From Lawsonibacter sp. (lineage in GTDB: Bacteria; Bacillota; Clostridia; Oscillospirales; Oscillospiraceae), in the NCBI GenBank assembly GCA_022795855.1, contig JAAWHL010000009.1, positions 1-47,128 on the forward strand: DNA of 47,128 bases, read 5' to 3'. Below, in pieces: positions 6,582 to 38,655 of this stretch. Below the pieces are notes generated by a model. That model was given only the letters and a program-made list of their open reading frames with translations. It was not told the origin of the DNA and did not search any database. The first letter of the stretch is position 1. Each line of letters opens with the position of its first letter. The position numbers and the translations under genes are program-made.

Positions 6582-6680
6582 ATTTCTCCCTTCTTTATGG
6601 TGTTTATTAACAGCTATCAAAAGCCTACCACAACGTTGACCAGATGTCAAGCGTTTTACTCACAATATCCAAAGTCCTTC

Positions 6681-6782: not shown

Positions 6783-7301
6783 CTAGCTCCGAAACTGCCT
6801 GCTGGGCAGCTCGTCATAGGGAACTTCTGCCTCCGGAACACCAACAGAGGACCAGAAATCTCCGTTGTCTGGCCAGGTACCCAAGTAGTATACGTTCTGC
6901 CCGTAAGCGTTAAACAGTTCAGGAGTAGATACCAGCACAGCGTCACCCAGACCGGAATGGGTGATAAGAATGGTAAAAAATACATCGTCTTGATAGTTAT
7001 AGTGAACCGCAATCTCCAGAACGGGACAACCTGGGGCGGTATAACCAGTCCGGTTAACAATTGTGCAAGGCTCATACTTGATTTGGCGAAGCGCGGGGAT
7101 TGCATCTTGGGCGGAAAACTCCTTGCAGTAAACGCCGCCTTCTCCCGCCACATAGACAGAAACAGAACGAACTTGTCTGTCGTAAATCGGCAAATCACAT
7201 GTAATTGGGCGGGGATGGAGATAAATGAAAACAATACAGCCAAAAAGGAACAGATCAATTAAAAGATGCCACCAGCACCATTTTCGTTTCCTTTCAAGCA
7301 T
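6783..7301 (-). CDS. membrane-anchored protein of unknown function, copy B
   Basis: 172 aa and paralogous to the gene at 6063-6581. It has an N-terminal anchor (about residues 10-27, WWHLLIDLFLFGCIVFIYL), the shared HPRP.T..LPI stretch, the same two cysteines (YCKEF, APGC) and the C-terminal VPEAEVPYDELPSR. Start ATG at 7301 with AGAGGTGAAAT as ribosome site. It begins 13 bases after the stop of the secreted protease, so the two are co-transcribed. This copy still sits next to the protease, so it probably occupies the ancestral position. Function unknown. A role linked to the protease (substrate, inhibitor or anchor) is only inference from the operon. Confidence 0.75.
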   Translation of the reverse strand: MLERKRKWCWWHLLIDLFLFGCIVFIYLHPRPITCDLPIYDRQVRSVSVYVAGEGGVYCKEFSAQDAIPALRQIKYEPCTIVNRTGYTAPGCPVLEIAVHYNYQDDVFFTILITHSGLGDAVLVSTPELFNAYGQNVYYLGTWPDNGDFWSSVGVPEAEVPYDELPSRQFRS

Positions 7302-8634: not shown

Positions 8635-9345
8635 TCAGGTGGTGTGCAGCTCCAGGCGGTCGCCGACGACCAGCTGCGTGACCCGGTGGGCGGGGCCCTG
8701 ATCGTCAAAGGAGACGGCCTGAATGGAGATCAGCGGGTAGCCTTGGCTGACAGATAGGTATTTGGCAATGTCATAGGGGGCATAGACCAGCTTGATGGTC
8801 TTTCCGTACCCCACCCAGGAGATGTTGTGGGCAGCAATGGCCTTCTGGAGGGAGGCGTTATTCAGGTTCTCCTCCAGCAGGAAGAGGTACCGCTCGGGCA
8901 TCCGGTGGATCTCGATGCAGACGGGCACACTGTTGGCGTAGCGGATGCGCTCCAGCACTACCACCTGAGCGGGGGGCGTCAGTTCCAGTTCCCGCAGGTC
9001 GTCATCGCTGGCTGCCTCGATCACCGACTTGATGGTGCGGGCCCCGGGAACCATTCCGCTCTGCAGGCACATGTCGGAAAAACTGATATCGTGGGTGATG
9101 CTCCGGCTCATACGGGACTGAGCGACGAAGGTCCCCTTTCCCCGGCGGCGGATCAGAAGGCCGCTTTTCACCAGAGAGTCCAGGGCGCTTCTCACCGTGA
9201 CGCGGCTGACCTGGTAGAGCTGGTGCAGCTCCAGCTCGGTGGGGATTTTCTGGCCTGGGGCATATTTTCCAGTCTCGATGTCCCGACGCAGGGAGTCAGA
9301 TAACTGCTGGTGGAGCGGAATGGATGTATCATGCTTCAGTACCAT
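8635..9345 (-). CDS. GntR/HutC-family transcriptional regulator
   Basis: 236 aa. It has an N-terminal GntR winged helix (about residues 5-72: LHQQLSDSLRRDIETGKYAPGQKIP, then VSRVTVRSALDSLVKSGLLIRRRGKGTFV) and a C-terminal UTRA ligand-binding domain (about 90-232) of the HutC type, which normally senses a small effector such as a sugar phosphate or amino-acid-derived acid. It is divergent from the long catabolic operon starting at 9824 and is the obvious candidate to control it. Both flanks of the intergenic region contain the 10-mer AGTGTATAAT (see 9460-9469 and 9744-9756). The effector is probably the imported compound or its phosphorylated product. Confidence 0.88.
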   Translation of the reverse strand: MVLKHDTSIPLHQQLSDSLRRDIETGKYAPGQKIPTELELHQLYQVSRVTVRSALDSLVKSGLLIRRRGKGTFVAQSRMSRSITHDISFSDMCLQSGMVPGARTIKSVIEAASDDDLRELELTPPAQVVVLERIRYANSVPVCIEIHRMPERYLFLLEENLNNASLQKAIAAHNISWVGYGKTIKLVYAPYDIAKYLSVSQGYPLISIQAVSFDDQGPAHRVTQLVVGDRLELHTT

Positions 9346-9459
9346 CTCTCATAACTCCGTTCGGAAAAATTTACAGCCGTCCGTCCTGTCAGACTGCGCA
9401 ATCTCTTCTCTGCCGCAGGAGGCGAACAGATGCAGACTTAATAATACCTAGCAAAAATC

Positions 9460-9469
9460 ATTATACACT
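9460..9469 (-). promoter_or_regulatory. possible GntR operator / -10 region of the regulator gene
   Basis: The minus strand reads AGTGTATAAT, identical to the ten bases that end in the -10 box of the divergent operon (9744-9753). It contains a TATAAT hexamer, though the -35 region is weak. This suggests one regulator site at each promoter. The rest of the 9346-9723 gap shows no gene I would defend. Confidence 0.4.
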
Positions 9470-9724
9470 GCATCCCCTGAAAAATCCATAGGAATTCTAT
9501 GTTTTTCTCTCCCTTTCCTCCGTGCTTTTTCAGCGTTTCAGTCGCCTTCTGAAGCAAGCCGCGGCTATTCTCCAAGCTTTTTTGTCAGTTCCGACAAAAT
9601 AAACGTGGAATTTTCCGCTGTTCCAACATGTTTTCTCAGCTATTTTCCTAAAACAGCTTCCGGCCCCCCGTATTTTTTTACAATTCTGAATCAAAAGGGC
9701 CAAACTGGCGCCGCCGCGGAAGCA

Positions 9725-9756
9725 TTGACATTCATGTACGTATAGTGTATAATACA
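9725..9756 (+). promoter_or_regulatory. promoter and operator of the catabolic operon
   Basis: TTGACA (9725-9730), a 17-base spacer and TATAAT (9748-9753) form an exact consensus sigma-A promoter. The -10 is embedded in TGTATAATACA (9746-9756), a palindrome apart from its central base and similar in style to HutC-type GntR operators. A repressor bound there would block the promoter. Confidence 0.75.
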
Positions 9757-9823
9757 TTACAAGACATATACGAGATAATATGGGACATAGCTTCCCGGAC
9801 AAACAGTAAAGGAGAGGATGTAT

Positions 9824-10636
9824 ATGGCGATGGAAACCTTGTTTGGAGTGAAAAAGCCCATTGTGGCTCTGCTTCACATCCGCGCCCTCCCCGGAGACCC
9901 CGCCTACGATGAGAAGGGCGGACTAAAGTATATCGTTGACACGGCGGCCCAGGAACTGGAGGATCTCCAAAACGGCGGCGTAGATGCCATCCTGTTCTCG
10001 AACGAGTACAGCTATCCTTTCCAGAAAAAGGTGGACTACGTCACCGTGTCGGCTATGGCCTTTGTGGTGGGCCGGCTCTACAGCCAGCTGCGGGTACCCT
10101 ATGGCATCAACGTGGTGATGAACCCTCTGGCGACTCTGGATCTGGCCGTGGCCACCGGGGCCAGCTTTATCCGCAGTTCCTTTACCGGCGTCTATGCGGG
10201 GGACTCCGGGCTCTACGAGCCTGACCCGGCCGCAGTGATTCGCCGCAAGTACCATCTGAACGCCCAGGGAATCAAAATTTTCTGCAAAGTAAACCCGGAG
10301 GCTGACTCCTATCTGGGAAGCCGCAGCTACAAGAGCATCACCGGGTCGCTGATTCACCGCTGCGCGCCAGATGCCCTGTGCGTCTCGGGGACGGGGGCCG
10401 GCACTGAGACGGACAGCGAGTTTCTCAAGGAGATTGTCAGCTATGCCGGGGACGTCCCTGTGATTTGCAACACTGGCTGCAACGCCGGGAATATCCTGGA
10501 GAAACTGAGCTGCTGCGATGGGGCCTGCGTGGGATCCGCCTTCAAGAAGGACGGAAAAACGGCCAACACGGTGGATCTGGAGCGGGTCAGGGAGTTCATG
10601 TCTATTGTCAAGGCCTACCGGGACACCCTAAACTGA
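9824..10636 (+). CDS. BtpA/SgcQ-family TIM-barrel protein
   Basis: 270 aa, about the length of BtpA/SgcQ proteins. Family-type motifs are visible: ALLHIRALPGDP near the N-terminus, then GGVDAILFSNEYS, YGINVVMNPLATLDLA, FIRSSFTGVYAGDSG, and the phosphate-binding-like VICNTGCNAGNI. The family adopts a TIM barrel and is found in sugar/nucleoside-like catabolic clusters (for example the sgc operon), but its reaction is not established. The ATG at 9824 is nine bases after GGAG (9811-9814); the ATG at 9818 is too close to that site. It is the first gene of the operon, 17 bases before the kinase. Confidence 0.8.
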   Translation: MAMETLFGVKKPIVALLHIRALPGDPAYDEKGGLKYIVDTAAQELEDLQNGGVDAILFSNEYSYPFQKKVDYVTVSAMAFVVGRLYSQLRVPYGINVVMNPLATLDLAVATGASFIRSSFTGVYAGDSGLYEPDPAAVIRRKYHLNAQGIKIFCKVNPEADSYLGSRSYKSITGSLIHRCAPDALCVSGTGAGTETDSEFLKEIVSYAGDVPVICNTGCNAGNILEKLSCCDGACVGSAFKKDGKTANTVDLERVREFMSIVKAYRDTLN

Positions 10637-10653
10637 GCAGAAGGAACGGCGCT

Positions 10654-12171
10654 ATGGGAAATTTCTTTATGGGGATCGATATCGGCACCTTCAGCAGCAA
10701 AGGCGTCATTGTGGATGGCGCGGGGCAGATCCTGTGCCAGCACACGGTCCCCCACGGCATGGAGAACCCCCGCCCAAAGCACTACGAGCACGACGCGGAG
10801 CAGGTATGGTGGCACGACTTCTGCACAATCAGCAAGGCGCTGCTGGTCAAGGCCGGTTTGAAGGCAGGGTGCATCCGTGCGGTGGGGGCCAGCGCCCTGG
10901 GCTGTGACTGCCTCCCGGTGGACGAGGCGTGCCGGCCCCTGCGCAAGGCAATCCTCTATGGCATTGATGCCCGGGCGGAGGAGGAAATCCGATTCCTGAC
11001 CGGGTACTACGGTCCGGAGCGGGTCAGGGCCCTGTTCGGCCGGCCCATGTCTTCCGGGGATATCGCCGCAAAAATCCTTTGGATCAAAAACCACGAGCCT
11101 GAGGTCTATAGGAAGACCTTTAAGTTCCTGACCGGTTCTTCCTATCTCGCCGCCAAGCTGACCGGGAATTACACCATCGACCGCTATCTGGCCCGGGCCT
11201 CCTTCCGGCCCATGTACCGCGCGGACGGATCCATTGACGAGGCGCTTTGCCCGCCGGTCTGCCGGCCCGACCAGCTGCCCCAGGCCCAGGCCGTCACCGA
11301 CCTGGCGGGCCGGGTCACCGCACGGGCGGCCGCCGAGACCGGGCTGGCAGAGGGAACCCCCGTCATCACCGGCACCGGGGACTCTTGCGCCGAGGCCATC
11401 AGCTCCGGGGTGTACAGGGACGGACGGGTGATGCTCCAGTTCGGCTCCACCCTCTACATGAACCTGTGTACCGGCCTCCTGGTGGAGGATGACCGGGTGC
11501 GGGGCACCATCTTTACTGTTCCGGGGACCTACACCGTCTCCGCCGGCACGAACACCGCTGGTACTTTGACCAAGTGGTTCCGGGATTCCCTCTTTCCCGA
11601 CCTGCTGGAGCGGGAGGCTCAGGGCGGTTCCAACGCCTACGCCGCCATGACCGAGGGGCTGGCGGACATCTCTCCCGGCTGCGGCGGGCTGATTACCCTC
11701 CCCTATTTTGCCGGGGAACGCAGTCCCATTGATGACCCGGAGGCCAGGGGGATGATCTTTGGACTGACCCTGGCCCACACCCGGGGCCACCTCTACCGCT
11801 CGGCCCTGGAGGGGATCGGCTTCGGCGTGGATCAGATCTTTCAGGTGCTTCGGGACCACGAGATTCACCCTGCACGGGTGATTGCCGCCGGAGGCGGGGC
11901 CCAGAACCGGGTATGGATGCAGATTGTATCCGATATTCTGGGGGAGAAGCTGCACATTCCCCAGGAGACGGTGGGCGCGTCCTACGGAGACGCCCTGATG
12001 GCGGCCATCGGCTGCGGCGCCCGCAAAGACTTTGACAGCCTGGACGAGATCGTCAAGATCCGGCAGGTCATTCATCCGAATATGGAGCATCACAGGGCGT
12101 ATGCGCCCTACAAGGAGCTGTTCCGGCAGCTGTACCTTCAGAACAGGGAGCTGATGCACCAGCTGCCCTGA
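10654..12171 (+). CDS. FGGY-family carbohydrate kinase
   Basis: 505 aa, typical for xylulokinase/gluconokinase-like FGGY kinases. The N-terminal phosphate-binding strand is GIDIGTFSSKGV. The sugar-side segment includes YGIDARAEEE, the second ATPase motif GTGDSCAEA and QFGSTLYMNL, and the C-terminal FGGY signature is AAGGGAQNRVWMQIVSDI. It would phosphorylate a sugar, sugar acid or polyol that enters by the TRAP transporter or is released by the hydrolytic enzymes of this operon. The exact substrate cannot be predicted. Start ATG at 10654 after AGAAGGA. Confidence 0.88.
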   Translation: MGNFFMGIDIGTFSSKGVIVDGAGQILCQHTVPHGMENPRPKHYEHDAEQVWWHDFCTISKALLVKAGLKAGCIRAVGASALGCDCLPVDEACRPLRKAILYGIDARAEEEIRFLTGYYGPERVRALFGRPMSSGDIAAKILWIKNHEPEVYRKTFKFLTGSSYLAAKLTGNYTIDRYLARASFRPMYRADGSIDEALCPPVCRPDQLPQAQAVTDLAGRVTARAAAETGLAEGTPVITGTGDSCAEAISSGVYRDGRVMLQFGSTLYMNLCTGLLVEDDRVRGTIFTVPGTYTVSAGTNTAGTLTKWFRDSLFPDLLEREAQGGSNAYAAMTEGLADISPGCGGLITLPYFAGERSPIDDPEARGMIFGLTLAHTRGHLYRSALEGIGFGVDQIFQVLRDHEIHPARVIAAGGGAQNRVWMQIVSDILGEKLHIPQETVGASYGDALMAAIGCGARKDFDSLDEIVKIRQVIHPNMEHHRAYAPYKELFRQLYLQNRELMHQLP

Positions 12172-12209
12172 TGGACCTCAAATCAGACACAAAGAAAGGA
12201 GCTAAGTTT

Positions 12210-12752
12210 ATGAGACGAGCGCTTGCGGCCATCCATAGAGGGATGGACCGGCTGGTGGACGCCGTTCACGTGCTGGCTGCGCTGATTACCGGGCTGTTTC
12301 TGCTGCTGACCTTTGCCCAGGTGGTCATGCGCTACGCATTCAATTCCCCCATCTACGGCGTGGACGAATATGTGCTGGCCCTGATGGTCTGGGCCAACGC
12401 CCTGGGCTTTGTGGTGGTCTACTGGCACAATGAACACGCTATGATCGAATTTGTGGTTCGTCGGGTCCCCGGGCCGGTGAAAACCGTGATCTACTGGATC
12501 ACCAACCTGTGCATTTTGATTGTCTCCGCCATTTTTGTGCCTGGAGGCATCACCCTGTTCGGCCTGCAGGTGAAAACGGCCCCCCGGATGGGCCTGCCTT
12601 TCCCCAAGGCCTACTACCTGGCCCTGCCTATGGTCGTTATGGGGATGCTGATGGTTCTGCTGTGCGCCTTTCGGACTGTAGAGTATGGCCTGACCCGGGA
12701 TAACGGGCTGATGAATGCTCTGCCGGAGGAAGGGGTGGTCCGCCTTGATTGA
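12210..12752 (+). CDS. dctQ: TRAP transporter small permease (DctQ-type)
   Basis: 180 aa with four predicted membrane segments (starting near residues 18, 52, 90 and 130). It has the conserved FAQVVMRYAFNSPIYGVDEY stretch of TRAP DctQ subunits. I chose the ATG at 12210, preceded by AAAGGAG, over an upstream in-frame start at 12171 that overlaps the kinase stop and lacks a ribosome site. Together with the next two genes it makes a complete tripartite TRAP importer, driven by an ion gradient. Confidence 0.88.
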   Translation: MRRALAAIHRGMDRLVDAVHVLAALITGLFLLLTFAQVVMRYAFNSPIYGVDEYVLALMVWANALGFVVVYWHNEHAMIEFVVRRVPGPVKTVIYWITNLCILIVSAIFVPGGITLFGLQVKTAPRMGLPFPKAYYLALPMVVMGMLMVLLCAFRTVEYGLTRDNGLMNALPEEGVVRLD

Positions 12753-14034
12753 TCCCATTGTGTGGGTGTGCTTGGGCGTATTTGTGGTGCTGTTGCTTAT
12801 TGAAGTGCCCATTCCCTTCGGCATGATGGCCTCCAGCCTGCTGTATATCCTCTACCAGAGGGACAGCTTCGTCATGTTTGCTTCCAAGCTGTCCACCTCC
12901 TTCTCCGACTTTACCATGATGGCGGTGCCCGCCTTCCTGTTTGTGGGCATCTTCATGAACGAGGTGGGGCTGACCGACCGGCTGTTCACTGGGGTGGAGG
13001 CCTGGATTGGCCACCTGACCGGCGGCCTGGCCCACGCCAACGTACTGGCCAGCATGATTTTTGCCGGGATGTCCGGCTCCGCCCTGGCCGACGCCGGCGG
13101 GTTGGGCACCATTGAGGTAAAAACCATGCGGGAGGCCGGCTATCAGGATGAATTCACCGTGGCGGTCACCGCCGCCTCCTCCGTCATCGGCCCCATCATC
13201 CCGCCAAGCATCAATTTCGTCATGTGGGCTTTCCTCAGCGGCAGCTCCACCATGGCCATGTTTATGGCGGGCATCGTCCCTGGGGTGCTGTGCGGCGCGA
13301 TGCTGATGGTCTGGATCTACGTGTCCATCAAGTTTTTGGGGGTCAAGGCTCCCAAGTCTAAAAAATATACCTGGAGCGAGCGTATGCGCGCCACTTGGCG
13401 GGCGCTGCCCGCCGTGGCCGGCCCGGCGGTGCTGATTGCCGGCATCATGACCGGCGCCTTCACCCCCACCGAGTGCGGCGTGGTGGCCTCCGCCTTCTGC
13501 ATCCTGGTGGCCGTCTGCGTCCGTCGCTTCAGCGTGAAGATGCTGCTCAAGGCCCTGCGCAGCAGCATTTCCTCCGCCGCCATGGTCATGGCTTTGTGCG
13601 GCACGGGGCTGATTTTCAACTGGATGATCACCACCTCCGGCCTGGTGAAGGTGCTGGTGGCCGCCCTGCTCTCCCTGGGCAGCAATGCGTTGATCGTCAT
13701 CCTGCTCAACGTGCTGATGCTGTTTCTGGGCTGCTTTCTGGGGGCCTCTCAAATCCTCATCCTGCTGGCCCCCCTGCTGATCTCCATCGGAAAGGGCATC
13801 GGCATGAGCATGGTGCAGATGGGCGTGATGGCGGTGTTCAACCTGACCATCTCCCTGATGACGCCCCCGGTGGCCCCCTCTCTGTTTATCACCGCCAAGG
13901 CGGCGGGCGTCCCCTTCAACAAGTGCCTGAAGTACGGCTGTCAGTTCCTGGTGCCCCTGGTGGTGACCCAGCTGCTGATTATGTTCATCCCCGCCGTCAC
14001 CGAGTGGTTCCCCCGGCTGATGGGAGTTATGTAG
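12745..14034 (+). CDS. dctM: TRAP transporter large permease (DctM-type)
   Basis: 429 aa with about 12 membrane segments, a normal DctM length. The signature GMSGSALADAGGLGTIEVKT and the later LTISLMTPPVAPSLF are typical. The start is taken as TTG at 12745, nine bases after GGAGGAAGGGG. It overlaps the end of dctQ by eight bases, indicating translational coupling. An ATG at 12715 would overlap dctQ further without a matching ribosome site. This subunit forms the ion-coupled channel of the transporter. Confidence 0.88.
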   Translation: MIDPIVWVCLGVFVVLLLIEVPIPFGMMASSLLYILYQRDSFVMFASKLSTSFSDFTMMAVPAFLFVGIFMNEVGLTDRLFTGVEAWIGHLTGGLAHANVLASMIFAGMSGSALADAGGLGTIEVKTMREAGYQDEFTVAVTAASSVIGPIIPPSINFVMWAFLSGSSTMAMFMAGIVPGVLCGAMLMVWIYVSIKFLGVKAPKSKKYTWSERMRATWRALPAVAGPAVLIAGIMTGAFTPTECGVVASAFCILVAVCVRRFSVKMLLKALRSSISSAAMVMALCGTGLIFNWMITTSGLVKVLVAALLSLGSNALIVILLNVLMLFLGCFLGASQILILLAPLLISIGKGIGMSMVQMGVMAVFNLTISLMTPPVAPSLFITAKAAGVPFNKCLKYGCQFLVPLVVTQLLIMFIPAVTEWFPRLMGVM

Positions 14035-14095
14035 AAAAAGACCTCGCCCGGCGTTCGAGGACTTTAATAAACCATAAATTTAAGGAGGAAACACG

Positions 14096-15175
14096 ATGAA
14101 AAAGAAATTGTCCGGCATCCTGGCGGCGGTATGCGCCCTGTCCCTCCTGCTGTCCGGCTGCGGCTCCAAGCCCCAGCAGCCTGCGGCGTCCACCCCTGCG
14201 GCGTCCACCCCTGCGGCCTCCAATCCAGCCTCCTCCGCCCCTGCGGACCCCGGCAAGGAGCCCCGGGTATTCCGCATCGGCGCCGTCTCCAACCCCACCG
14301 ACATCATGGCTGAGGCCGGCCAAATGTTCTGCGACCTGGCCACCGAGCGCCTGGGCGGCGAGATCATCTTTGAGTACTACCCCGGCGAGCAGTTGGGCAA
14401 CTCCAGCGTCATGCTGGAGAACATGCAGGTGGGGCTGCAGGAGGGCATGACCATCGCCCTGGACTCCCTGTCCGCCTACTCCCGTGACCTGAACATCATG
14501 GCCATGGCCTTTGCCTTTGAGGACATGGACCACCTGATGGCCTACCTGGAGTCCGACTACGGCAAAGCAGCCTTGGACAAGCTGGAGGACTCCGGGTTCC
14601 ACATGCTTAACTACAACTTCCAGAAGAATCCCCGCTGCATCTTCGGCAAAAAACCCATTACCTGCGCAGACGACCTGAAGGGCGTAAAATTCCGCATCGC
14701 CGACATTGAGATCTTTCAGAAAAACTTCAGTACCCTGGGGGCCGTGCCCACGGTGGTCGCCTGGTCGGAGTACACCTACGCCTTAATGCAGGGCGTGGTG
14801 GACGCGGGGGAGTGCACCTATGAGAACATCACCGCCAACGGCTTCCACCTCTACGCCCCCTACATCTCCCTGGTGGACTACGCCTACGCCCTGGAGAGCA
14901 TCATCCTGACCCCCGACGCCTGGAACTCCCTGACTCCCGAGCAGCAGGAGATTGTCTCCCAGTGTGCCGAGGAGGCCTCCGAGATGTTCAACGAGAAGAA
15001 CTCCTCCTCCTGGACCGAGCAGAAGGCCCAGATCGAGCAGGAGGGCGGCCAGTTTGTAGAGTTTGACAAGGAATCCTTCATCAAGAAGATGGAGCCTCTG
15101 GCGGCTCAGCTGGAGAGCGAGGGATTCTTTGATACCCCCGGCCTGTACGATTACGTGCAGCAGCTGCGCGGCTGA
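14096..15175 (+). CDS. dctP: TRAP solute-binding lipoprotein (DctP-type)
   Basis: 359 aa. It has a lipoprotein signal peptide with lipobox LLSGC (Cys22), a low-complexity linker (AASTP repeats at about residues 30-45), and a DctP/TAXI-like periplasmic-binding fold with family landmarks GEQLGNSSVMLENMQVG and LKGVKFRI. The usual arginine that clamps the substrate carboxylate is plausibly Arg in KFRIADIEIFQ, but I cannot confirm this by alignment. It captures the substrate outside the membrane for DctQM. TRAP binding proteins usually take organic acids, which constrains the operon substrate. Ribosome site AAGGAGG precedes the ATG. Confidence 0.88.
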   Translation: MKKKLSGILAAVCALSLLLSGCGSKPQQPAASTPAASTPAASNPASSAPADPGKEPRVFRIGAVSNPTDIMAEAGQMFCDLATERLGGEIIFEYYPGEQLGNSSVMLENMQVGLQEGMTIALDSLSAYSRDLNIMAMAFAFEDMDHLMAYLESDYGKAALDKLEDSGFHMLNYNFQKNPRCIFGKKPITCADDLKGVKFRIADIEIFQKNFSTLGAVPTVVAWSEYTYALMQGVVDAGECTYENITANGFHLYAPYISLVDYAYALESIILTPDAWNSLTPEQQEIVSQCAEEASEMFNEKNSSSWTEQKAQIEQEGGQFVEFDKESFIKKMEPLAAQLESEGFFDTPGLYDYVQQLRG

Positions 15176-15371
15176 TTCCGGCTGCTGCACAGACTTTGCC
15201 CCATCTCCAGCTCAGAGCCGGACCTCGCCGTGCGGGGGGCCTCCCCCGCGGCGGCCGCCGGCCTACCGCCCCTTCCCAGGGACGGCCGAACTCCCGTATG
15301 AGACGGCGCGGCCCTTGGGCGGGCGATGCCCCGGAATGCAGCGATACGATTCCTTTAGGAGGTAATGTTTC
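15176..15371 (+). other. GC-rich spacer within the operon
   Basis: The longest gap in the catabolic operon (196 bases). It contains GC-rich inverted repeats such as GCGGGGGGCCTCCCCCGC near 15227-15252 that could form an attenuating or processing hairpin between the transporter and enzyme genes. TAGGAGGTAAT at 15357-15367 is the ribosome site of hyuA. I see no separate promoter. Confidence 0.4.
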
Positions 15372-17435
15372 ATGGGCTATATGATCGGCGTAGACGTCGG
15401 CGGCACCTTCACCGACTTTTCCATTTTCAGTCAAGAAACCGGAAAGCTCTTCCACTTTAAGCACAGCTCTACCAACCAGGATTCCTCCATCGCCATTGTG
15501 GACGGCATTCAAAAGATTCTCGCCATGGAGCACGCGGACACCGCCAGCGTCGTCTATCTGGCCCACGGCACCACCGTCTCCACCAACGCTCTGATTGAGA
15601 AGACAGGGGCGAACGTGGGACTGATTACCACCGAGGGGTTCCACGATGTGATGGAAATCGGCTTGCAAAAACGGCCGGAGATGTATGACACCCTGGCCCA
15701 AAAGCCCCAGTCCATGGTCCAGCCTGGCATGAATCTGGGCGTGCCCGAGCGCGTCCGGTACGACGGCCAGGTGGTGATTCCTCTGGACGAGGAGCGGGTG
15801 CGGGAGGCGGTCCGCCTGTTCAAGGCCAACGGCGTCAACGCTGTGGCGGTGGCCACCTTGTTCTCCTTCCTGAACGCCAAACACGAAAAGCGCATCAAGG
15901 AGCTGATTCAGGAGGAGTACCCCCAGGCCTATATCACCATCTCCTCCGAGCTTGTGCCCGAGTTCCGGGAGTACTCCCGCATGAGTACCACGGTGCTCAA
16001 CTCCTACCTGGGCCCAAGCATGAAGGACTACGTAAAGAATTTCCAGGACTCGGTAAAGCGCATCGGAATCCAGGTTGAACCCTATGTCACCCAGTCCAAT
16101 GGCAGCATTATCTCTATCAAGGAGACCATTGCCGCCCCCATCAAAACCGCAGTCTCCGGCCCCTCCGCCGGGGTCATCGGCGCGGCATACATCAGCCGGC
16201 AGTGCGGGGCGGACAAGATCATCACCTTTGACATGGGCGGCACCAGCGCCGACATCAGTCTGATTGAAAACTACCGCCCCCAGGTGTCCAACGAGCGCCT
16301 GGTGGAGGGCCATCCCGCCCGCATCCCTATGATCAGCATCATCACCATCGGCGCGGGGGGCGGCAGCATCGCCTCCATCGACGAGGGGGGCGTCATGAAG
16401 GTGGGCCCCCGCAGCGCCGGCGCAACCCCCGGCCCGGCCTGCTACGGCCGCGGCGGCACCCTGCCCACCGTCACCGACGCCAACATCGTCCTGGGAAAGC
16501 TGAACCAGGAGAAGATCCTGGGCGGCCGGATGGACGTGTATCTGGACAAGGCCGTCAGGGCGATTCAGGAAAACCTGTGCAGCAAAACCAGCCTGGACCT
16601 GAAACAGGCGGCCAATGGGATTATTTCTGTTGTCAACTCAAATATGATGCGTGCCGTGCGCGTTGTCTCCGTGGAAAAGGGATACGACGTGCGTGAGTTC
16701 ACGCTTATGGCGTTCGGCGGCGCGGGCCCGCTCCACGCCTGCGAGGTGGCCCAGGAGCTGGGCATCAAGCGGGTCATTATGCCGCCCTCCCCCGGCACCC
16801 TCTGCTCCCTGGGCCTGCTGATGGCGGATACCCGCTTTGATTTCTCCTGCTCCAATATTATGCAGGCCCTCCCCGAGAACATCCCTGCGGTTCGGGACAT
16901 CTTCCGCTCCCTGGCGGAGGACGGCCGGAAAATGCTGGTGAAGGAGGGCGTGGCCGAGGAGCACCACAGCTTTGAGTGGGCCATTGACATGCGCTACGAC
17001 CGGCAGAACTATGAGATCACCGTCCCCCTGCGGGCCTGCGAGATGACCGAGGAGGTACTGGCCTGGGCGGTCGAGGACTTCCACGCCGCCCACAAGAAGG
17101 CCTACGGCTACCGCAGCGACGGGGCCGGCGTCAAGCTGGTCAGCTACCGGGTGGCGGCCATCGGCCTGATCTCCAAGCCGGAGATTCCGGAGCAGCCCAT
17201 CCAGGAAAACGCCCCCGCCCCCGTGCCGGCGGCCCGCCGGAAGGTGCTGTTCCAAGGGCAGCAGGACTATGTGGACTGCGGAATCTACGACCGCGCCTCC
17301 TTTGTCCCCGGCACCCGCCTGTCCGGCCCCGCCATTGTGGAGCAGATGGACTGCACCACCGTCGTCCCGCCGGGCTGGCATATCCTGTCGGACGGTTATT
17401 CCAATATGATCGCTGAATATAGAGAGGAAGGGTGA
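15372..17435 (+). CDS. HyuA-type hydantoinase/oxoprolinase ATPase subunit
   Basis: 687 aa, the usual length of the A subunit of N-methylhydantoinase/5-oxoprolinase/acetone-carboxylase-type enzymes. The ASKHA ATPase motifs are clear: GVDVGGTFTDF at residues 6-16, LAHGTTVSTNALIE, ITFDMGGTSADIS near residue 290, and TIGAGGGSIA. A late conserved block is FGGAGPLHACEVAQELG. Family enzymes use ATP to phosphorylate an amide, lactam or enol oxygen before hydrolysis or carboxylation. There is no gamma-type third subunit here, which favours an ATP-dependent ring opening over carboxylation. Start ATG at 15372 after AGGAGGTAATGTTTC. Confidence 0.87.
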   Translation: MGYMIGVDVGGTFTDFSIFSQETGKLFHFKHSSTNQDSSIAIVDGIQKILAMEHADTASVVYLAHGTTVSTNALIEKTGANVGLITTEGFHDVMEIGLQKRPEMYDTLAQKPQSMVQPGMNLGVPERVRYDGQVVIPLDEERVREAVRLFKANGVNAVAVATLFSFLNAKHEKRIKELIQEEYPQAYITISSELVPEFREYSRMSTTVLNSYLGPSMKDYVKNFQDSVKRIGIQVEPYVTQSNGSIISIKETIAAPIKTAVSGPSAGVIGAAYISRQCGADKIITFDMGGTSADISLIENYRPQVSNERLVEGHPARIPMISIITIGAGGGSIASIDEGGVMKVGPRSAGATPGPACYGRGGTLPTVTDANIVLGKLNQEKILGGRMDVYLDKAVRAIQENLCSKTSLDLKQAANGIISVVNSNMMRAVRVVSVEKGYDVREFTLMAFGGAGPLHACEVAQELGIKRVIMPPSPGTLCSLGLLMADTRFDFSCSNIMQALPENIPAVRDIFRSLAEDGRKMLVKEGVAEEHHSFEWAIDMRYDRQNYEITVPLRACEMTEEVLAWAVEDFHAAHKKAYGYRSDGAGVKLVSYRVAAIGLISKPEIPEQPIQENAPAPVPAARRKVLFQGQQDYVDCGIYDRASFVPGTRLSGPAIVEQMDCTTVVPPGWHILSDGYSNMIAEYREEG

Positions 17436-17438
17436 ACC

Positions 17439-19163
17439 ATGGGCGCAGCTGTGGATCCGGTCATTGTAGAGGTCATTCGCAACCTTTTGCTGTCCATTAC
17501 GGACGAAACCAACACGGTTATCATCAAAAGCGCCTACTCCACCAACATCAAGGAGCGCCGGGACAACTCGGCGGCCGTTATGGACGCCGCGGGCAACGTG
17601 GTGGCCCAGGTAGAGGGGAGCATCCCCATCCTGCTGGCCGCCCAGCTGCTGGCCGCCCGCAACATCATAGGCAAGTACGGCGCGGAGAACATCCATCCGG
17701 GGGACATGTTCATTGTCAACGACCCCTATCACGGCGGCGGCAACCATCTGCCCGACATCACCGTAGCCGCCCCTGTGTTTGCCGGGGGAAAGCTGATTGC
17801 CTGGGTCAGCAACATCGCCCACCATTCCGATATCGGCGGCACCGTGCCGGGCAGCATTGTAGGCAATGCCAGGTCAATCTTTGAGGAGGGCACCCGCATC
17901 CCCATTGTGCGCATCTGCCGGGACGGGGAGATCAACGACGATGTGATGGACCTGCTGCTGGGCAACACCCGCACGCCGGAGGAGCGCCGGGGGGATTTCA
18001 CCGCCCAGATCTCCGCCAACCTGATCGGGGCGGAGAAAATCCAGTCCGCCTATGAGAAGTACGGCCAGACTCTGCTGGATTGCATGGAGGAGATCCAAAA
18101 CTACTCCCAGCGGATGATGCTCAGCACCATCCGGAAGATTCCCGACGGGGAGTACTGCTTTGAGGACTTTGTGGACGGCTGCGGCGACCAGGTGCCCCAC
18201 CCCATCAACATCAGAGTGAAGATCACCGTGGCCGGAGAAAAAATGACCATGGACTTCACCGGGACCCATCCCCAGGTGGAGGCCCCCATCAATATCCCCT
18301 TCCCCGTGCTGATGGCCGGCATTCTCTACTCCATCAAAGCCCTGGTGGGCCCCGGCCTGCCCACCAACGCGGGCATCTTCCGGCCCCTGGAGATCATCGC
18401 CCCCAAAGGGTGCCTGGTCAACCCCGTCGAGCCCGCCCCCGTCTGCGTACTCATCGACGCGGCCCAGCGCATCCCTGACGCCATCTTCGGCGCACTGGGC
18501 GGGGTGATGAAGGAGCGCAGCTTGGCCGCCTCTAACGGAGCGTGCACCACCTGTATGCTCTTTGGCCGCACGGAGAATTCCAGGGGGAACTATTTCATTT
18601 GCCATGAGTCCATTGCCGGCGGCTCGGGGGCCAGCCGCTCCTGCGACGGGCTGAGCGGGGTGCAGGTGTATCTGACCAACACCTCCAATATGCCCATTGA
18701 GGCCACCGAAATGGAGTATCCGGACATCATGGTGGAAAAATACTTCCTGCGCACCGACTCCGGCGGGGCAGGACGGTTCCGGGGCGGCTGCGGCATCGAG
18801 CGGCAGTACCGCATCTGCAGCGACGGTATGGCAGTCAACTGCCTGGGTGACCGGCAGAAGTTCCAGCCGTGGGGGCTGGAGGGCGGCCTGCCCGGCGGCG
18901 CAGGGGCCTTCTACCTGTTGGACGGGGAGACGGGTGAGCGTACCAAGCTCTCCCACAAGACCAGCAGCCTGCCGGTGAAGAAGGGAGACGCTATTCTGGT
19001 CCACACCCCCGGCGCCGGGGGCGTGGGTGACCCCAGGAAGCGGGAACCGGAGCAGGTGCTGCGGGACGTGAACTGCCGTCTGGTCTCTCCCCAGGCGGCC
19101 AGGGAGTTGTACGGCGTGGAGGTGGAGCCCACCGGCTCCGGAATCTACCGCCTGAAACCGTAA
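17439..19163 (+). CDS. HyuB-type hydantoinase/oxoprolinase subunit
   Basis: 574 aa, full length for the B subunit that forms the hydrolytic partner of HyuA. Typical stretches are SAYSTNIKERRDNSAAV, IVNDPYHGGGNHLPDI, VSNIAHHSDIGGTVPGS and AGGSGASRSCDG. The His and Asp residues of HGGGNHLPD and AHHSDIGG are likely metal ligands. The ATG at 17439 is three bases after the hyuA stop, so the subunits are made together. With HyuA it is predicted to open a cyclic amide or imide ring at the cost of ATP. The physiological ring compound is unknown. Confidence 0.87.
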   Translation: MGAAVDPVIVEVIRNLLLSITDETNTVIIKSAYSTNIKERRDNSAAVMDAAGNVVAQVEGSIPILLAAQLLAARNIIGKYGAENIHPGDMFIVNDPYHGGGNHLPDITVAAPVFAGGKLIAWVSNIAHHSDIGGTVPGSIVGNARSIFEEGTRIPIVRICRDGEINDDVMDLLLGNTRTPEERRGDFTAQISANLIGAEKIQSAYEKYGQTLLDCMEEIQNYSQRMMLSTIRKIPDGEYCFEDFVDGCGDQVPHPINIRVKITVAGEKMTMDFTGTHPQVEAPINIPFPVLMAGILYSIKALVGPGLPTNAGIFRPLEIIAPKGCLVNPVEPAPVCVLIDAAQRIPDAIFGALGGVMKERSLAASNGACTTCMLFGRTENSRGNYFICHESIAGGSGASRSCDGLSGVQVYLTNTSNMPIEATEMEYPDIMVEKYFLRTDSGGAGRFRGGCGIERQYRICSDGMAVNCLGDRQKFQPWGLEGGLPGGAGAFYLLDGETGERTKLSHKTSSLPVKKGDAILVHTPGAGGVGDPRKREPEQVLRDVNCRLVSPQAARELYGVEVEPTGSGIYRLKP

Positions 19164-19175
19164 GGAGGAATCAAA

Positions 19176-20081
19176 ATGGCACTGCTGCGCCGGGAGCAGC
19201 TGGCCGGGGTGAATCTCCACTACAGGCTGTTCCCTTTTGAGTATTTTTTGAAGACCCAGCAGGCGCTGGGCATCAAGAGCGTAGAGCTCTGGGCAGGTGC
19301 GCCCCACTTTCTGCTGGGCTGCGACGGATATCAGGACTGCACCCAGGTGAAGGAACAGGCGAAACGCTTTGGCCTGAACATCCCGGTTTTCTCCCCTGAG
19401 TGCGTCACCTACCCCTTCCCCCTCTGCTCCGGAAACCCGGAGGTGCGCCGGATGGCCCGGGACTACTACGCCAACGCCATCCGGGCGGCGGCCCGGCTGG
19501 GGGCCGCAATCGTCCCCCTGAGCTGCGCCGGGGGACTGAAGGACGAGGACCCGGGGGAGGTCCTGCGCCGGGCGGAGGATATGCTGGGGACGTTGGCCCC
19601 CATCGCCCGGGAGGAGGGGATCACCCTGGCGGTGGAGACCCTGTGCCCTGACGTGTCCGTGATTGTCAACACCCTGCCCCAGCTGCTCCGGCTGCTGGAG
19701 GCGGTGAACAGCCCCAGCGTGAAAGCCGCCGCGGATATCTGCGCCGTGCGCACGGCGGGGGAAACGCTGGACCAGTGGTTTGGGGCTTTGGGGGACGCTG
19801 TTGTCCACATCCACTTCACCGACGGGCGGCCCGGCGGGCGGCTGGTCTGGGGACAGGGCCTGCACCCCCTGGACGACTACCTTCAGACCCTGGACCGCTG
19901 GGGATACCAGGGACATCTGGGGCTGAACCTGAATGTCCGGGGCAACTGGTTTGACCCCTCCCTGGTGGACGAGGCCCGGGGATTTGTGGGGACGGAGTTT
20001 GTGCCGGAGAACGACTGGTTCACCCCTGCGGAGGCGGACAGGAAAAACCTGGAGGCCTTCGCCCGCTATCTGGCAGACTGA
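19176..20081 (+). CDS. sugar isomerase/epimerase-like TIM barrel, paralogue 1
   Basis: 301 aa, xylose-isomerase-like/AP-endonuclease-2 family. Conserved positions expected to bind the divalent metal can be read: Glu in LAVETLCPD, Asp in KAAADICAV, and His in HIHFTDG. The final glutamate, normally in a strand such as LSLEI, is replaced: the sequence here is LGLNLN. It may be inactive, altered in reaction, or mainly a partner. It is the first of four tandem paralogues. ATG at 19176, 12 bases after hyuB, with AAGGAGG as ribosome site. Confidence 0.82.
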   Translation: MALLRREQLAGVNLHYRLFPFEYFLKTQQALGIKSVELWAGAPHFLLGCDGYQDCTQVKEQAKRFGLNIPVFSPECVTYPFPLCSGNPEVRRMARDYYANAIRAAARLGAAIVPLSCAGGLKDEDPGEVLRRAEDMLGTLAPIAREEGITLAVETLCPDVSVIVNTLPQLLRLLEAVNSPSVKAAADICAVRTAGETLDQWFGALGDAVVHIHFTDGRPGGRLVWGQGLHPLDDYLQTLDRWGYQGHLGLNLNVRGNWFDPSLVDEARGFVGTEFVPENDWFTPAEADRKNLEAFARYLAD

Positions 20082-20097
20082 CAAGGAGAGCGGTGTG

Positions 20098-20940
20098 ATG
20101 AAATATTTCAGTAAGGACAAGCAGTTTTGCAACTTCAATCTCCACTACGACACCTTCTATTCCCTTGACTACTTCTGTTCGTGTATGGAGCGGCTCCAGG
20201 TGAAAAACGTGGAGCTGATTGCGGGTCATCAAAGCCTGTTCCTGGACCACAACGGTATTCAGGACGCCGCGCGGGCGAAAAAACTCCTCCGGGACCACGG
20301 CCTGAAGGCGGCCGCCGTCTCCGCCCAGAGCTGCCGGTTCCGCTATCAGTTTGCCGTCCGGGAGAAGGAGGTGCAGGAGCAGACCTTCCAGTTCTTCGCC
20401 AACGGTATCCGGCTGGCGGCCGAGCTGGGCGCAGGGATTCTCCAGGTGAACCCGGGCTGGGGCTACTGGAACGAACCCCTTCAGGACGGCCGGGAGCGGG
20501 CGGCGGAGATGTTCCTGCGTCTGTGCCGGGTGGGGCAGGAGTACGGTGTACGCATGGCCTGTGAGGCCCTCCGCCCCCAGGAATCCCTGATGGGATACCG
20601 GATTCAGGACATCAGGCAGATTTACGATATGGTAGACCACCCAAATTTCAAGGTGATGATCGACACCTGCGCCATGGGCGTGGCCGGAGAGACTATCCAG
20701 CAGTGGTTTGACACCTTCGGCAGCGAAAATATTATCCACGCCCATTTCCAGGACGGGACCCCTTATTTCCACATGATCTGGGGAGAGGGCAGGCGCAATT
20801 TGGGCGAGGACCTGCGGGTGCTGTATGAAAATGGCTACACCGGGATGCTCAGCCAGGAGCTGACCATGCCCGCCTACTATCAGGACCCCTTCTCCTGCGA
20901 CGTGCGTAATCTGGCCGCCCTCAGCGAGTACCTGTACTGA
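20098..20940 (+). CDS. sugar isomerase/epimerase-like TIM barrel, paralogue 2
   Basis: 280 aa, same family as its neighbours. Putative metal ligands are all present: Glu in MACEALRP, Asp in KVMIDTCAM, His in IHAHFQDG, and the final Glu in LSQELTM. The N-terminus NFNLHYDTFYSLDYF parallels NLHYRLFPFEYF of paralogue 1. ATG at 20098 (or the adjacent GTG at 20095), preceded by AAGGAGAG; the longer upstream frame overlaps paralogue 1 and is not supported. It probably isomerises or epimerises a ketose/aldose intermediate of this pathway. Confidence 0.82.
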   Translation: MKYFSKDKQFCNFNLHYDTFYSLDYFCSCMERLQVKNVELIAGHQSLFLDHNGIQDAARAKKLLRDHGLKAAAVSAQSCRFRYQFAVREKEVQEQTFQFFANGIRLAAELGAGILQVNPGWGYWNEPLQDGRERAAEMFLRLCRVGQEYGVRMACEALRPQESLMGYRIQDIRQIYDMVDHPNFKVMIDTCAMGVAGETIQQWFDTFGSENIIHAHFQDGTPYFHMIWGEGRRNLGEDLRVLYENGYTGMLSQELTMPAYYQDPFSCDVRNLAALSEYLY

Positions 20941-20965
20941 ACGGGCCTGCAAAGGAGGAAGAGTC

Positions 20966-21820
20966 ATGTCAAAACTGCTGATGGACCAGCTGGCGGCCAC
21001 CAATATGGTGTACTCCCGCTTCTCCTTCCAGTATTTTCTGGACTCCATGCAGCGGCTGGGGGTGCGCAGTATTGAGCTGTACGGCTGTACCACCCACTTC
21101 CATTTTTACGACGGCGGCGACCCCATCCCCCGGCTGAAGCGGCAGATCCGGGACAGCGGGCTGAAGGTCATCTCCATGATGCCGGAAGAAAACGTGTATC
21201 CGGTGAACATTGCGGCCCGGGAGAAGCGCCTGCGGGACAATACGGTTTCTCTGTACAAGCGGTTTATGGACGCGGCAGCGGAGCTGGACTGCCATCAGAT
21301 GCTGCTGTGCCCCGGCCGGCCCTACCGGGATATGCCCTACTCTGAGGGATTCCAATACGCCCGGGACTCCGTCCAGCGCCTGGCCGAGTACGGTCAGGAG
21401 ACCGGCGTGGTGCTGTGCTATGAGAATCTGCGCATCGGCGAGTCCACCCTGGCCACCAACCTGGAGGATCTCAGCCGCATGGTGTGGGAGATTGACTCCC
21501 CCTATCTCAAATGCTGTGTGGACACGGTCCCCGTGTACGCGGCCGGTGAGAAGCTGGCCGACTACCTGGAGGTGTTGGGGGAAAACGTCCACCACATCCA
21601 CTTGAACGACGGCGACCCCGACGGCCATCTAATGTGGGGGGACGGCACCCAGGACCTGGACGAGCATCTGGACGCCCTGCGGGCCCACGGTTATTCCCGC
21701 TACATCACTATGGAGATGGCGGCGGCCAAATACCGCCTGGACCCGGAGACCTATTATGCCCAAAATATCCGATATCTCAGCGCCCACTTCGACGGCGGAA
21801 ATCTGTCCAACAGCTGGTGA
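20966..21820 (+). CDS. sugar isomerase/epimerase-like TIM barrel, paralogue 3
   Basis: 284 aa. Metal ligands appear intact: Glu in LCYENLRIG, Asp in KCCVDTVPV, His in HHIHLNDG, and Glu in YITMEMA. The DGDPDGHLMWGDG segment after the His matches the DG...WG pattern of paralogues 1 and 2 and may contact the substrate. ATG at 20966 with AAAGGAGGAAG upstream, 25 bases after the previous stop. It is probably catalytic. Confidence 0.82.
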   Translation: MSKLLMDQLAATNMVYSRFSFQYFLDSMQRLGVRSIELYGCTTHFHFYDGGDPIPRLKRQIRDSGLKVISMMPEENVYPVNIAAREKRLRDNTVSLYKRFMDAAAELDCHQMLLCPGRPYRDMPYSEGFQYARDSVQRLAEYGQETGVVLCYENLRIGESTLATNLEDLSRMVWEIDSPYLKCCVDTVPVYAAGEKLADYLEVLGENVHHIHLNDGDPDGHLMWGDGTQDLDEHLDALRAHGYSRYITMEMAAAKYRLDPETYYAQNIRYLSAHFDGGNLSNSW

Positions 21821-21836
21821 AAGGAGCGTGTTTTGA

Positions 21837-22739
21837 GTGAAAAACGCAAAGCTGTGCGTCGTAACCGCGCCCTACTGGCACTACACCCTGGAGTACGCCA
21901 TGAACAGCATTGCCTCCAGCGGGTTTTCCAGCCTGGAGCTCTGGGCCGCCTCCCCACACTACTGCTACGCCGATTATACCCAGGAGGAGCGCCAAGCGCG
22001 CCGGCGGGAGATTCTGGCCATGATGGAGCGGTACGGCCTGGACATGCCCGTGTTCTACCCGGAGCAAATGAACAAATACCCCCTGAACATCGCCAGCGCG
22101 GAGGAGGAGATCAGGCAATTCAGCCTGGAGCGGGTGCTGGAGTATGTGGATGACGCAGCTCTCTTCGGCGCGGAGTCCATGCTGCTGGGCACGGGCTGGC
22201 AGCACCTGGACGCCCCCAGTCCGGAAAACCGGGAGCGGGCCGTATCCGCCATCCGGACGGTGTCCTGTCGGGCGGAGGAGCGGGGCATCACCCTGCTTCT
22301 GGAGCCCGCCGCGCCGGTGCTGGGGTCCTTTGTCTGGGACCTGGATTCATTGGTCCGGATGCTGCACGACGTGGGCTGTGCCAATGTGAAGGCCTGTCTG
22401 AACTTGGCCTTCATTCTGGAGCGTGGCGAGTCGGCAGCGGACTGGTACAGCGCTCTGAACGGGCGGGTGGGGCATGTCCACTTTGCCGGTCAGGGCGGCC
22501 GTGACCCAGGATCCGGCAGCGGGGTGTCCGGCGCCCTGCGCGCCCTGGATGCTCTGGGCTATACAGGGCACCTCTCTCTGAATATCACCTTCCGGGACTG
22601 CTGCCTGACACCAGACCGTGAGGTGTTCCGGTCTGGAAGGTGGCTTAGCCGCCAGGGATTTTTGCAGCTCCCGAGACCAGTCTCGCGGGAGCAGTGCAGC
22701 AAAGAGCTGTCCGCCGGAGATTTCCGGCGGACCCTCTGA
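21837..22739 (+). CDS. sugar isomerase/epimerase-like TIM barrel, paralogue 4 (degenerate site)
   Basis: 300 aa and clearly the same fold (SSGFSSLELWAASPHYCY; VGHVHFAGQGG). The Asp expected in KxxxDT is Asn (KACLNLAF) and the last Glu is Asn (LSLNITF); only the first Glu (LLEPAAP) and the His remain. It lacks the DG...WG loop shared by the other three. The start is GTG at 21837 after AAAGGAG. The last ~30 codons run through two strong inverted repeats (22667-22732), so the C-terminus may be frayed. It is likely a pseudo-enzyme or decaying copy. Confidence 0.75.
   Translation: MKNAKLCVVTAPYWHYTLEYAMNSIASSGFSSLELWAASPHYCYADYTQEERQARRREILAMMERYGLDMPVFYPEQMNKYPLNIASAEEEIRQFSLERVLEYVDDAALFGAESMLLGTGWQHLDAPSPENRERAVSAIRTVSCRAEERGITLLLEPAAPVLGSFVWDLDSLVRMLHDVGCANVKACLNLAFILERGESAADWYSALNGRVGHVHFAGQGGRDPGSGSGVSGALRALDALGYTGHLSLNITFRDCCLTPDREVFRSGRWLSRQGFLQLPRPVSREQCSKELSAGDFRRTL
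22667..22732 (+). terminator. two hairpins inside the 3' end of paralogue 4
   Basis: GCTCCCGAGA (22667-22676) pairs with TCTC...GGGAGC (22681-22692). GTCCGCCGGA (22709-22718) pairs perfectly with TCCGGCGGAC (22723-22732) across a four-base loop. They look like the transcription stop of the operon, but there is no U-run, and they lie within the open frame rather than after it. Confidence 0.5.
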
Positions 22740-37304: not shown

Positions 37305-37324
37305 AACTTACTCTCCCCTCCTAA

Positions 37325-38637: not shown

Positions 38638-38655
38638 TCTCTACACACCTGCCTT

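Follow-up and report, generated by a model that had tools for sequence, protein, structure and literature searches.

The DNA examined here, a stretch of 47,128 nucleotides from a Lawsonibacter sp. (hereafter the window), is contig C36 of G000, a draft genome of 2.5 Mb that is 93% complete in 127 contigs. Its central feature is an operon of eleven genes in which a BtpA/SgcQ family barrel and an FGGY sugar kinase precede a tripartite ATP-independent periplasmic (TRAP) importer, the two subunits of a probable HyuA/HyuB lactamase and four xylose-isomerase-like barrels, with a GntR/UTRA regulator reading away from them (Table 1). An earlier note on this sequence had named these genes, and each was found in its place and above its Pfam cut-off. 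The genes from 9824 to 22739 share one strand and are separated by short gaps or overlaps, the longest gap being 196 bp, 5' of HyuA; visual inspection shows good ribosome-binding sites for 8 of the 11. The operon is probably one transcript from the promoter at 9725, as the same note had held in calling it a single regulated unit with one promoter. The match to the consensus bears out the promoter, whereas its being the sole one is only likely, because promoter-like sites in the region (12 on both strands) exceed those in shuffled sequence (4.6 +/- 2.4) and a strong match, at 11 of 12 positions, falls at 20708 within Iso2. Control of this transcript would lie with the UTRA protein, and a regulator 54% identical to it occupies the equivalent place at the related locus L033. 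Short ATACA-like repeats were seen by eye, without statistics, ahead of BtpA at L033 and L039, and the upstream stretch of L034 has them too.

Table 1. The operon and its control region (window coordinates; matches are Pfam models with E-values unless otherwise indicated)
Feature	Coordinates	Strand	Matches and remarks
GntR/UTRA transcriptional regulator, divergent	8635..9345	-	PF07702 3.9e-23, PF00392 1.9e-20
Sigma-70 type promoter TTGACA-17-TATAAT	9725..9753	+	12/12 consensus positions, 17-base spacer
Inverted repeat TGTAT-A-ATACA, 11 bases, candidate operator	9746..9756	.	Covers the -10 box; found by eye
BtpA/SgcQ family barrel	9824..10636	+	PF03437 2.1e-73; TIGR00259 252 bits, cut-off 153; start at 9818 also possible
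FGGY sugar kinase, partner of BtpA	10654..12171	+	PF00370/PF02782; start most likely ATG 10654
DctQ, TRAP small permease	12171..12752	+	PF04290 3.5e-22
DctM, TRAP large permease	12715..14034	+	PF06808 3.4e-86; true start perhaps slightly downstream
DctP, TRAP substrate-binding protein	14096..15175	+	PF03480 6.6e-52
HyuA, ATP-binding subunit of a probable ATP-dependent lactamase	15372..17435	+	Hydant_A_N, Hydantoinase_A, Hydant_A_C
HyuB, metal-binding hydrolase subunit	17439..19163	+	PF02538 1.6e-176
Iso1, xylose-isomerase-like barrel	19176..20081	+	PF01261 2.2e-36; last Glu of the quartet replaced by Asn
Iso2, xylose-isomerase-like barrel	20098..20940	+	PF01261 1.4e-30; quartet intact
Iso3, xylose-isomerase-like barrel	20966..21820	+	PF01261 5e-39; quartet intact
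Iso4, xylose-isomerase-like barrel	21837..22739	+	PF01261 2.9e-25; Asp and last Glu of the quartet replaced by Asn

By sequence comparison, the BtpA-FGGY pair is the conserved core of the operon. In a midpoint-rooted BtpA tree of 46 rows, the operon's BtpA belongs to a 17-row group, clade A (support 100/96), which includes the near-copies L037 and L038. An FGGY gene lies within 0.9 kb of BtpA in all 17 rows (the gene of L100 is cut by the contig end), with space for one more gene between the two at L043, L045 and L095, and these kinases are about 50-61% identical to that of the operon. Since the FGGY tree contains the equivalent group (16 rows, without L100; 100/100), and since both trees recover a sub-group of the window with L033, L034, L039, L046 and L047 (97/97 and 95/98), BtpA and FGGY seem to share a history. 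The BtpA tree used one BtpA per locus, without L036 (like L035), the short loci L001, L003-L032 and L062-L085, one SgcQ and the second BtpA of L049 and L052; the FGGY tree leaves out L100 and the FGGY frames of L044, L105 and L108. Over all 46 BtpA rows, 33 have an FGGY frame in the fetched stretch (the 17 of clade A and 16 others, some several kb off), two more (L102 and E. coli) have an Sgc-type phosphotransferase system (PTS), and in 11 neither FGGY nor PTS was seen. Because a kinase or PTS accompanies most BtpA rows, the BtpA substrate is expected to be phosphorylated.

We found no assigned reaction for BtpA/SgcQ proteins: NCBIfam gives photosystem I biogenesis for one equivalog (NF045918), against which the operon's BtpA scores 154 bits, under the cut-off of 400, and the literature titles listed show no enzymology. 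Residues H18, D54, N60, R117, R140, G218, K241 and G244 are invariant in all 46 rows, and E61 is kept in 43. The sequence gave no significant match to solved structures; the best matches of its profile are weak and local (E 0.03-0.07), mainly in the C-terminal part, and fall on phosphate-binding barrels, while 6 of 22 family members touch the Pfam family Trp_syntA (best E 0.0022). The proteins so matched (geranylgeranylglyceryl phosphate synthase, TrpA, PcrB and TMP-TENI) are all phosphate-binding triosephosphate isomerase (TIM) barrels. PF03437 is also matched in 198 plasmid records and, among 14 control genomes, in five, those of E. coli, Synechococcus, Thermus, Thermotoga and Methanocaldococcus (three of the five over the cut-off); the scan of named genomes gave one BtpA locus, in Pleomorphochaeta.

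The exact full gene set is rare; minus its barrels, the set was met once more, in a genome of the same genus. The search for joint conservation that had been suggested for this gene set thus largely failed: the BtpA-FGGY sub-module is conserved, and the form with TRAP and HyuAB was found, among the loci fetched at length, in G000 and G039 only. A BtpA match (E <= 0.001) occurs in 25 of 300 family genomes, the window's own included; of the six same-genus genomes shown, G000 and G039 have one, both in the TRAP-HyuAB form. At the G039 locus (L033) the order UTRA-BtpA-FGGY-DctQ-DctM-DctP-HyuA-HyuB is kept at 40-61% identity, without the block of four barrels and with one distant barrel 2.4 kb further on. 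At E <= 1e-40, BtpA was found in 9 of 394 genomes of an order sample and 18 of 398 of a phylum sample, counting the window's own and some genomes of the family sample. Apart from L033, no TRAP genes with close HyuAB stand beside BtpA at the loci fetched at length from these three samples; some 5 kb from the BtpA of L102 there is a HyuA-like frame that is only distantly related (28-29% identity). This comparison does not extend to twelve weaker or second BtpA places for which no long stretch was fetched, eight from the family sample (G133 twice, G177, G031, G165, G231, G143 and G293:C155) and four from the order and phylum samples (G675, G902, G1029 and G926:C86), and a further one, G180:C55 (48378), that lies outside its fetched stretch.

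Around the BtpA genes of clade A, genes of frl/moc type scoring at least 120 bits were found in 10 of the 17 stretches (L002, L034, L035, L038, L039, L041, L043, L045, L094 and L095) versus none of the 29 other BtpA rows, five of which have weak matches below 90 bits (L042, L050, L051, L104 and L113). UTRA regulators were excluded from this count, E. coli SgcQ was judged from its annotation, and the stretches compared run from 5.6 to 20.8 kb, so that absence of a neighbour weighs less for the short ones. A general association of BtpA with frl genes was rejected on these 29 rows. At the Pleomorphochaeta locus, L002, two FrlD kinases and one FrlC epimerase exceed the NCBIfam cut-offs, with FrlA-like and SIS genes adjoining; L045 has a neighbour over the cut-off for FrlD; and at L039 one UTRA gene separates BtpA-FGGY from a SIS/PfkB pair 36-37% and 32-33% identical to that of the Agrobacterium plasmid pAoF64/95. 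The seven clade A rows without frl/moc genes comprise three that lie at the edge of a contig or on a short one (L037, L040 and L100), two with an ATP-binding cassette (ABC) system of SBP_bac_3 type and an Iso2-like barrel (L046 and L047), and the window and L033, which form the TRAP-HyuAB variant. A transporter was identified in 10 of the 17 rows, and each belongs to a type for amino acids or dicarboxylates: FrlA, DcuA/B, SBP_bac_3 ABC, YfcC-like (under its cut-off) or TRAP. The link extends to whole genomes, with FrlD (E <= 1e-30) in 10 of 13 clade A genomes (7 over the cut-off) versus 14 of the other 287 in the family sample (Fisher p 3.5e-10), or in 9 of 11 clade A genera (p about 3.5e-7). 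These p-values ignore relatedness and assume that the same 300 genomes entered both searches, as the tallies suggest; the window's genus is counted on both sides, since G237 has FrlD without BtpA, and G197 was placed in clade A by its likeness to G004.

A second line of evidence comes from HyuAB. The genome of the window has a single HyuA match (PF01968), which is this gene, and a single BtpA match, along with twelve for DctP. The ATP motifs of HyuA (DVGGTFTD at 8, DMGGT at 287 and GATPGP at 350) and the D-H-D-H metal tetrad of HyuB (D42, H103, D106 and H128, aligning with CapB D41, H99, D102 and H124) are intact; both features are defined for caprolactamase in an excerpt of PMC8453981. HyuA scores 609 bits with the caprolactamase model (under its cut-off of 1000) versus 354 with the best carboxylase model, and from these profile scores a carboxylase was judged unlikely. 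In a midpoint-rooted tree of 30 HyuA proteins (one per locus; the second HyuA of L163 and L168 and the distant L102 frame were left out), those of the window, L033 and a Priestia filamentosa plasmid group together (99/97). This trio belongs to a 12-row group (100/99) with seven HyuA of proteobacterial plasmids (pAoF64/95, pTi CFBP2692, Paracoccus, Martelella, Terrarubrum and two unannotated Rhizobium records) and two control sequences, L155 and L159, apart from 18 others of the phylum sample. The HyuAB pair of Priestia is flanked by a SIS protein, a PfkB kinase and a GntR gene; the best NCBIfam matches of the former two are FrlB (132 bits, cut-off 430) and FrlD (165 bits, cut-off 247), and to their counterparts on pAoF64/95 they show 43% and 44% identity. 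By gene order, the pAoF64/95 SIS/PfkB pair would be mocD and mocE: an excerpt of PMC6341043 places mocE as the last conserved gene, about 500 nt before a small traR-like orf, in agreement with the plasmid annotation, and describes a mocD mutant as unable to degrade deoxyfructosyl-glutamine further. The HyuAB genes of pAoF64/95 adjoin flavin adenine dinucleotide (FAD) and short-chain dehydrogenase/reductase (SDR) oxidoreductases, and for the HyuAB pairs of Ti (tumour-inducing) plasmids the opening of opine lactams is put forward, as a proposal, in excerpts of PMC6733357 and PMC8554961. At 20 control HyuA loci from the phylum sample, three of them under 5 kb, there was no match to BtpA, FGGY, FrlB, FrlC or FrlD, and a general association of HyuA with frl genes was therefore rejected.

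The barrels at the end of the operon had been described as four isomerase-like proteins. All four do match AP_endonuc_2 (PF01261), but the E-D-H-E quartet is intact in Iso2 and Iso3 only, and 'four isomerases' is too generous because Iso1 and Iso4 lack quartet residues. The quartet is kept in 8 of 8 aligned relatives, and we take its role to be that in the D-tagatose 3-epimerase family. The economical reading would be two active epimerases (Iso2 and Iso3) and two altered paralogues, of which the latter may be inactive partners or of other chemistry. FrlC is the best NCBIfam match of all four (58-122 bits, under the cut-off of 305); the barrels beside BtpA-FGGY at L046 and L047 match Iso2 best, and those of L034, L035 and L038 have Iso3 as their best match in the window.

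We propose, with about even confidence, that the operon imports and breaks down a lactam-ring Amadori (1-amino-1-deoxyketose) conjugate of a sugar and an amino acid, for example N-(1-deoxyfructosyl)-pyroglutamate. That the substrate is a sugar-amino acid conjugate of some kind is fairly likely; that it arrives in lactam form could go either way; and that BtpA performs the deglycating step is a tentative suggestion with the balance tilted against it. The TRAP importer, of clear family and with DctP, DctQ and DctM all present, would take up the anionic conjugate, and HyuAB, with its intact active-site residues, would use ATP to open the lactam to a ketosyl-glutamate. The FrlC-like Iso2 and Iso3 would then epimerise the ketose part, the FGGY kinase would phosphorylate the sugar end, and BtpA might reverse the Amadori rearrangement or cleave the phosphorylated conjugate to a sugar phosphate and an amino acid. 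The chemistry of TrpF and HisA is an Amadori rearrangement, and it is by likeness to these enzymes that we propose BtpA as a reverse Amadori enzyme. The operon may work like an Amadori operon, with BtpA-FGGY taking the place expected of FrlB-FrlD. More speculatively still, and with doubt outweighing confidence, BtpA/SgcQ with FGGY (or with a PTS, as in E. coli sgc) could be a second deglycation system, non-homologous to FrlB/FrlD or FN3K, in which the kinase or PTS phosphorylates the ketosamine and BtpA reverses the rearrangement or cleaves, here coupled to an ATP-dependent lactamase that would unlock pyroglutamate-type Maillard products. That neither FrlD nor a stand-alone FrlB-type protein was found in the draft genome is what suggests such a second route. 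The pyroglutamic acid-glucose Amadori product is present in soy sauce, according to an excerpt of PMC8303902; the name fructosyl-pyroglutamate, in one spelling or another, occurs in 36 papers, and we found no bacterial pathway for it among the literature listed, which is no proof of absence. The idea of a glycosylated lactam that is imported, ring-opened, isomerised and phosphorylated, as first suggested in the earlier note, fits the phylogeny and neighbours of HyuA and the neighbours of BtpA-FGGY and is narrowed here to an Amadori or opine-like sugar-amino acid conjugate; for the hydantoin also considered there, no positive support was found.

Several observations weigh against this proposal. 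FrlD (NF007321, E <= 1e-30) was found neither in G000, a 93% complete draft, nor in G039, and the FrlB matches of both genomes are the size of glucosamine synthase only, the sole one in G000 being a 717-codon frame at 41 bits (cut-off 430). With no gene of proven fructosamine function found in these two genomes, the case rests on relatives. Outside the genus, the link between HyuAB and frl genes is a single plasmid, that of Priestia; only two of the seven plasmid HyuA belong to records whose name or description is that of a Ti or opine plasmid, and two belong to unannotated records; and the control HyuA of L155 and L159, on long branches, fall in the 12-row group although no frl, BtpA or FGGY gene lies near them. 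Outside clade A, the companions of BtpA-FGGY pairs are sugar transporters, and the solved chains nearest to DctP (4xfe, 4ovt, 4x8r and 4pc9) are presumably sugar-acid binders. Several frl loci, finally, hold BtpA-FGGY together with SIS and PfkB genes, and BtpA may therefore not be a deglycase.

The alternative that survives best, although unlikely, is that a sugar acid or simple sugar is the substrate of the operon: a uronate or aldonate would enter through TRAP, be isomerised and be phosphorylated by a xylulokinase-like FGGY, with HyuAB opening an unrelated lactam or a lactam side group. The best equivalog of the kinase is indeed xylulokinase (XylB; 268 bits, under the cut-off of 380), the barrel fold includes sugar isomerases and epimerases, and the structures nearest to DctP point the same way. 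What speaks for a plain sugar acid, as the earlier note had allowed, comes down to the weak resemblances of DctP and FGGY, however, and no uronate or aldonate dehydratase or dehydrogenase is present among the operon genes as identified. In addition, the BtpA-FGGY pairs of clade A sit with frl genes and amino-acid type transporters, and HyuA groups with the Amadori-type locus of Priestia and with pAoF64/95. Somewhat less probable is a chance union of two pathways under one regulator, in which BtpA-FGGY would serve a non-amino sugar phosphate in an aldolase or isomerase role. E. coli sgcQ sits with a PTS, and BtpA-FGGY pairs beyond clade A with sugar ABC transporters, SDR and DeoR genes (Rhizobium, Thermus), but clade A, including the window, has a recurrent frl/moc context, and the order from the UTRA gene through BtpA-FGGY and DctQMP to HyuAB is kept in G039 despite a BtpA only 55% identical to the operon's. 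That the substrate is a reduced mannityl-opine lactam, for instance agropinic acid, broken down in the manner of Ri (root-inducing) or Ti plasmids, is improbable: HyuA shares its 12-row group with those of pAoF64/95 and pTi CFBP2692, an excerpt of PMC6341043 names an uptake operon for agropinic acid on pAoF64/95, and Martelella has TRAP and an SDR-FAD oxidase-HyuA-HyuB-RidA set, but the SDR and FAD-oxidoreductase pair just upstream of HyuAB in all three is not in the window's operon.

Other BtpA and FGGY loci have companions of their own. FGGY genes 42-47% identical to the operon's adjoin genes for SgcX-type M42 peptidases at loci with SgcQ-like BtpA (L096, L099, L101, L106 and L107), and at L101 and L107 the FGGY/SgcX-type pair lies some kb from BtpA; a peptidase-kinase-BtpA set of this kind might act on glycated or blocked peptides. 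In Rhizobium laguerreae (L090, 8989-12918), BtpA-FGGY is followed by a gene of the gamma-glutamyltransferase family, another hint of a glutamyl conjugate. Two rhizobial plasmids (L088 and L089) carry an SgcQ-like BtpA, 68-69% identical to E. coli SgcQ, with no FGGY in the stretch and with a sugar isomerase, a PIG-L deacetylase, a Gfo/Idh oxidoreductase and an alpha/beta hydrolase around it.

Elsewhere in the window, the stretch from 6 to 10 kb has a GC (guanine plus cytosine) content of 47-51%, below that of most of the window. On its minus strand are tandem genes for small proteins that look alike by eye (6063-6650 and 6783-7301; the second has no Pfam match) and one for a secreted-looking protein of 375 amino acids with no Pfam match (7315-8442), in which NKTCWAAAMASML was noticed by eye as a papain-like Cys motif and DHAMVIRG, further along, as a His motif. 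A glycosyl hydrolase family 18 enzyme with three S-layer homology stretches is encoded at 4306-6012 (plus strand), and Rnf-type electron transport genes (4Fe-4S protein, Rnf-Nqr, NQR2_RnfD_RnfE and RnfC) at 36501-41440 (minus strand).

BtpA/SgcQ proteins are widespread, and the operon and its relatives suggest for them a specific substrate class, the ketosamines; if this is true, the operon would in addition provide a route by which lactam Maillard products of food are broken down. Among known systems, the frl operon of E. coli and B. subtilis is like the operon in its UTRA-type regulator (FrlR matches that of the window by BLAST in relatives), FrlC-like barrels, kinase step and dedicated importer, and frl-kind genes flank BtpA-FGGY in the window's relatives. 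Unlike it, the window has FGGY, BtpA, HyuAB and TRAP, and we do not class the operon as frl type because searches of the draft genome for FrlD (PfkB) and a stand-alone FrlB-type SIS protein found neither. The E. coli sgc operon encodes SgcQ, 45% identical to the window's BtpA, but has PTS uptake, SgcX (M42) and SgcE, and no FGGY. In an excerpt of a 2026 E. coli atlas (PMC13343008), sgc is induced on nitrogen-containing substrates, its mutants show no growth defect on 190 Biolog sources, and its function and substrate are called unestablished. The mannopine plasmid pAoF64/95, with its moc and HyuAB regions, has HyuA and HyuB 45% and 39% identical to those of the window, the former in the same group, and differs in its ABC uptake, FAD and SDR oxidoreductases and PfkB/SIS chemistry; its listed annotated genes include neither BtpA nor FGGY. 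Plasmid pBEH4 of P. filamentosa (SIS-HyuA-HyuB-PfkB-GntR) has FrlB/FrlD-like enzymes and major facilitator superfamily transporters in contrast to the BtpA/FGGY and TRAP of the window, and yet, with HyuA and HyuB 48% and 47% identical, it shows the same logic of a lactamase joined to sugar-amine enzymes.

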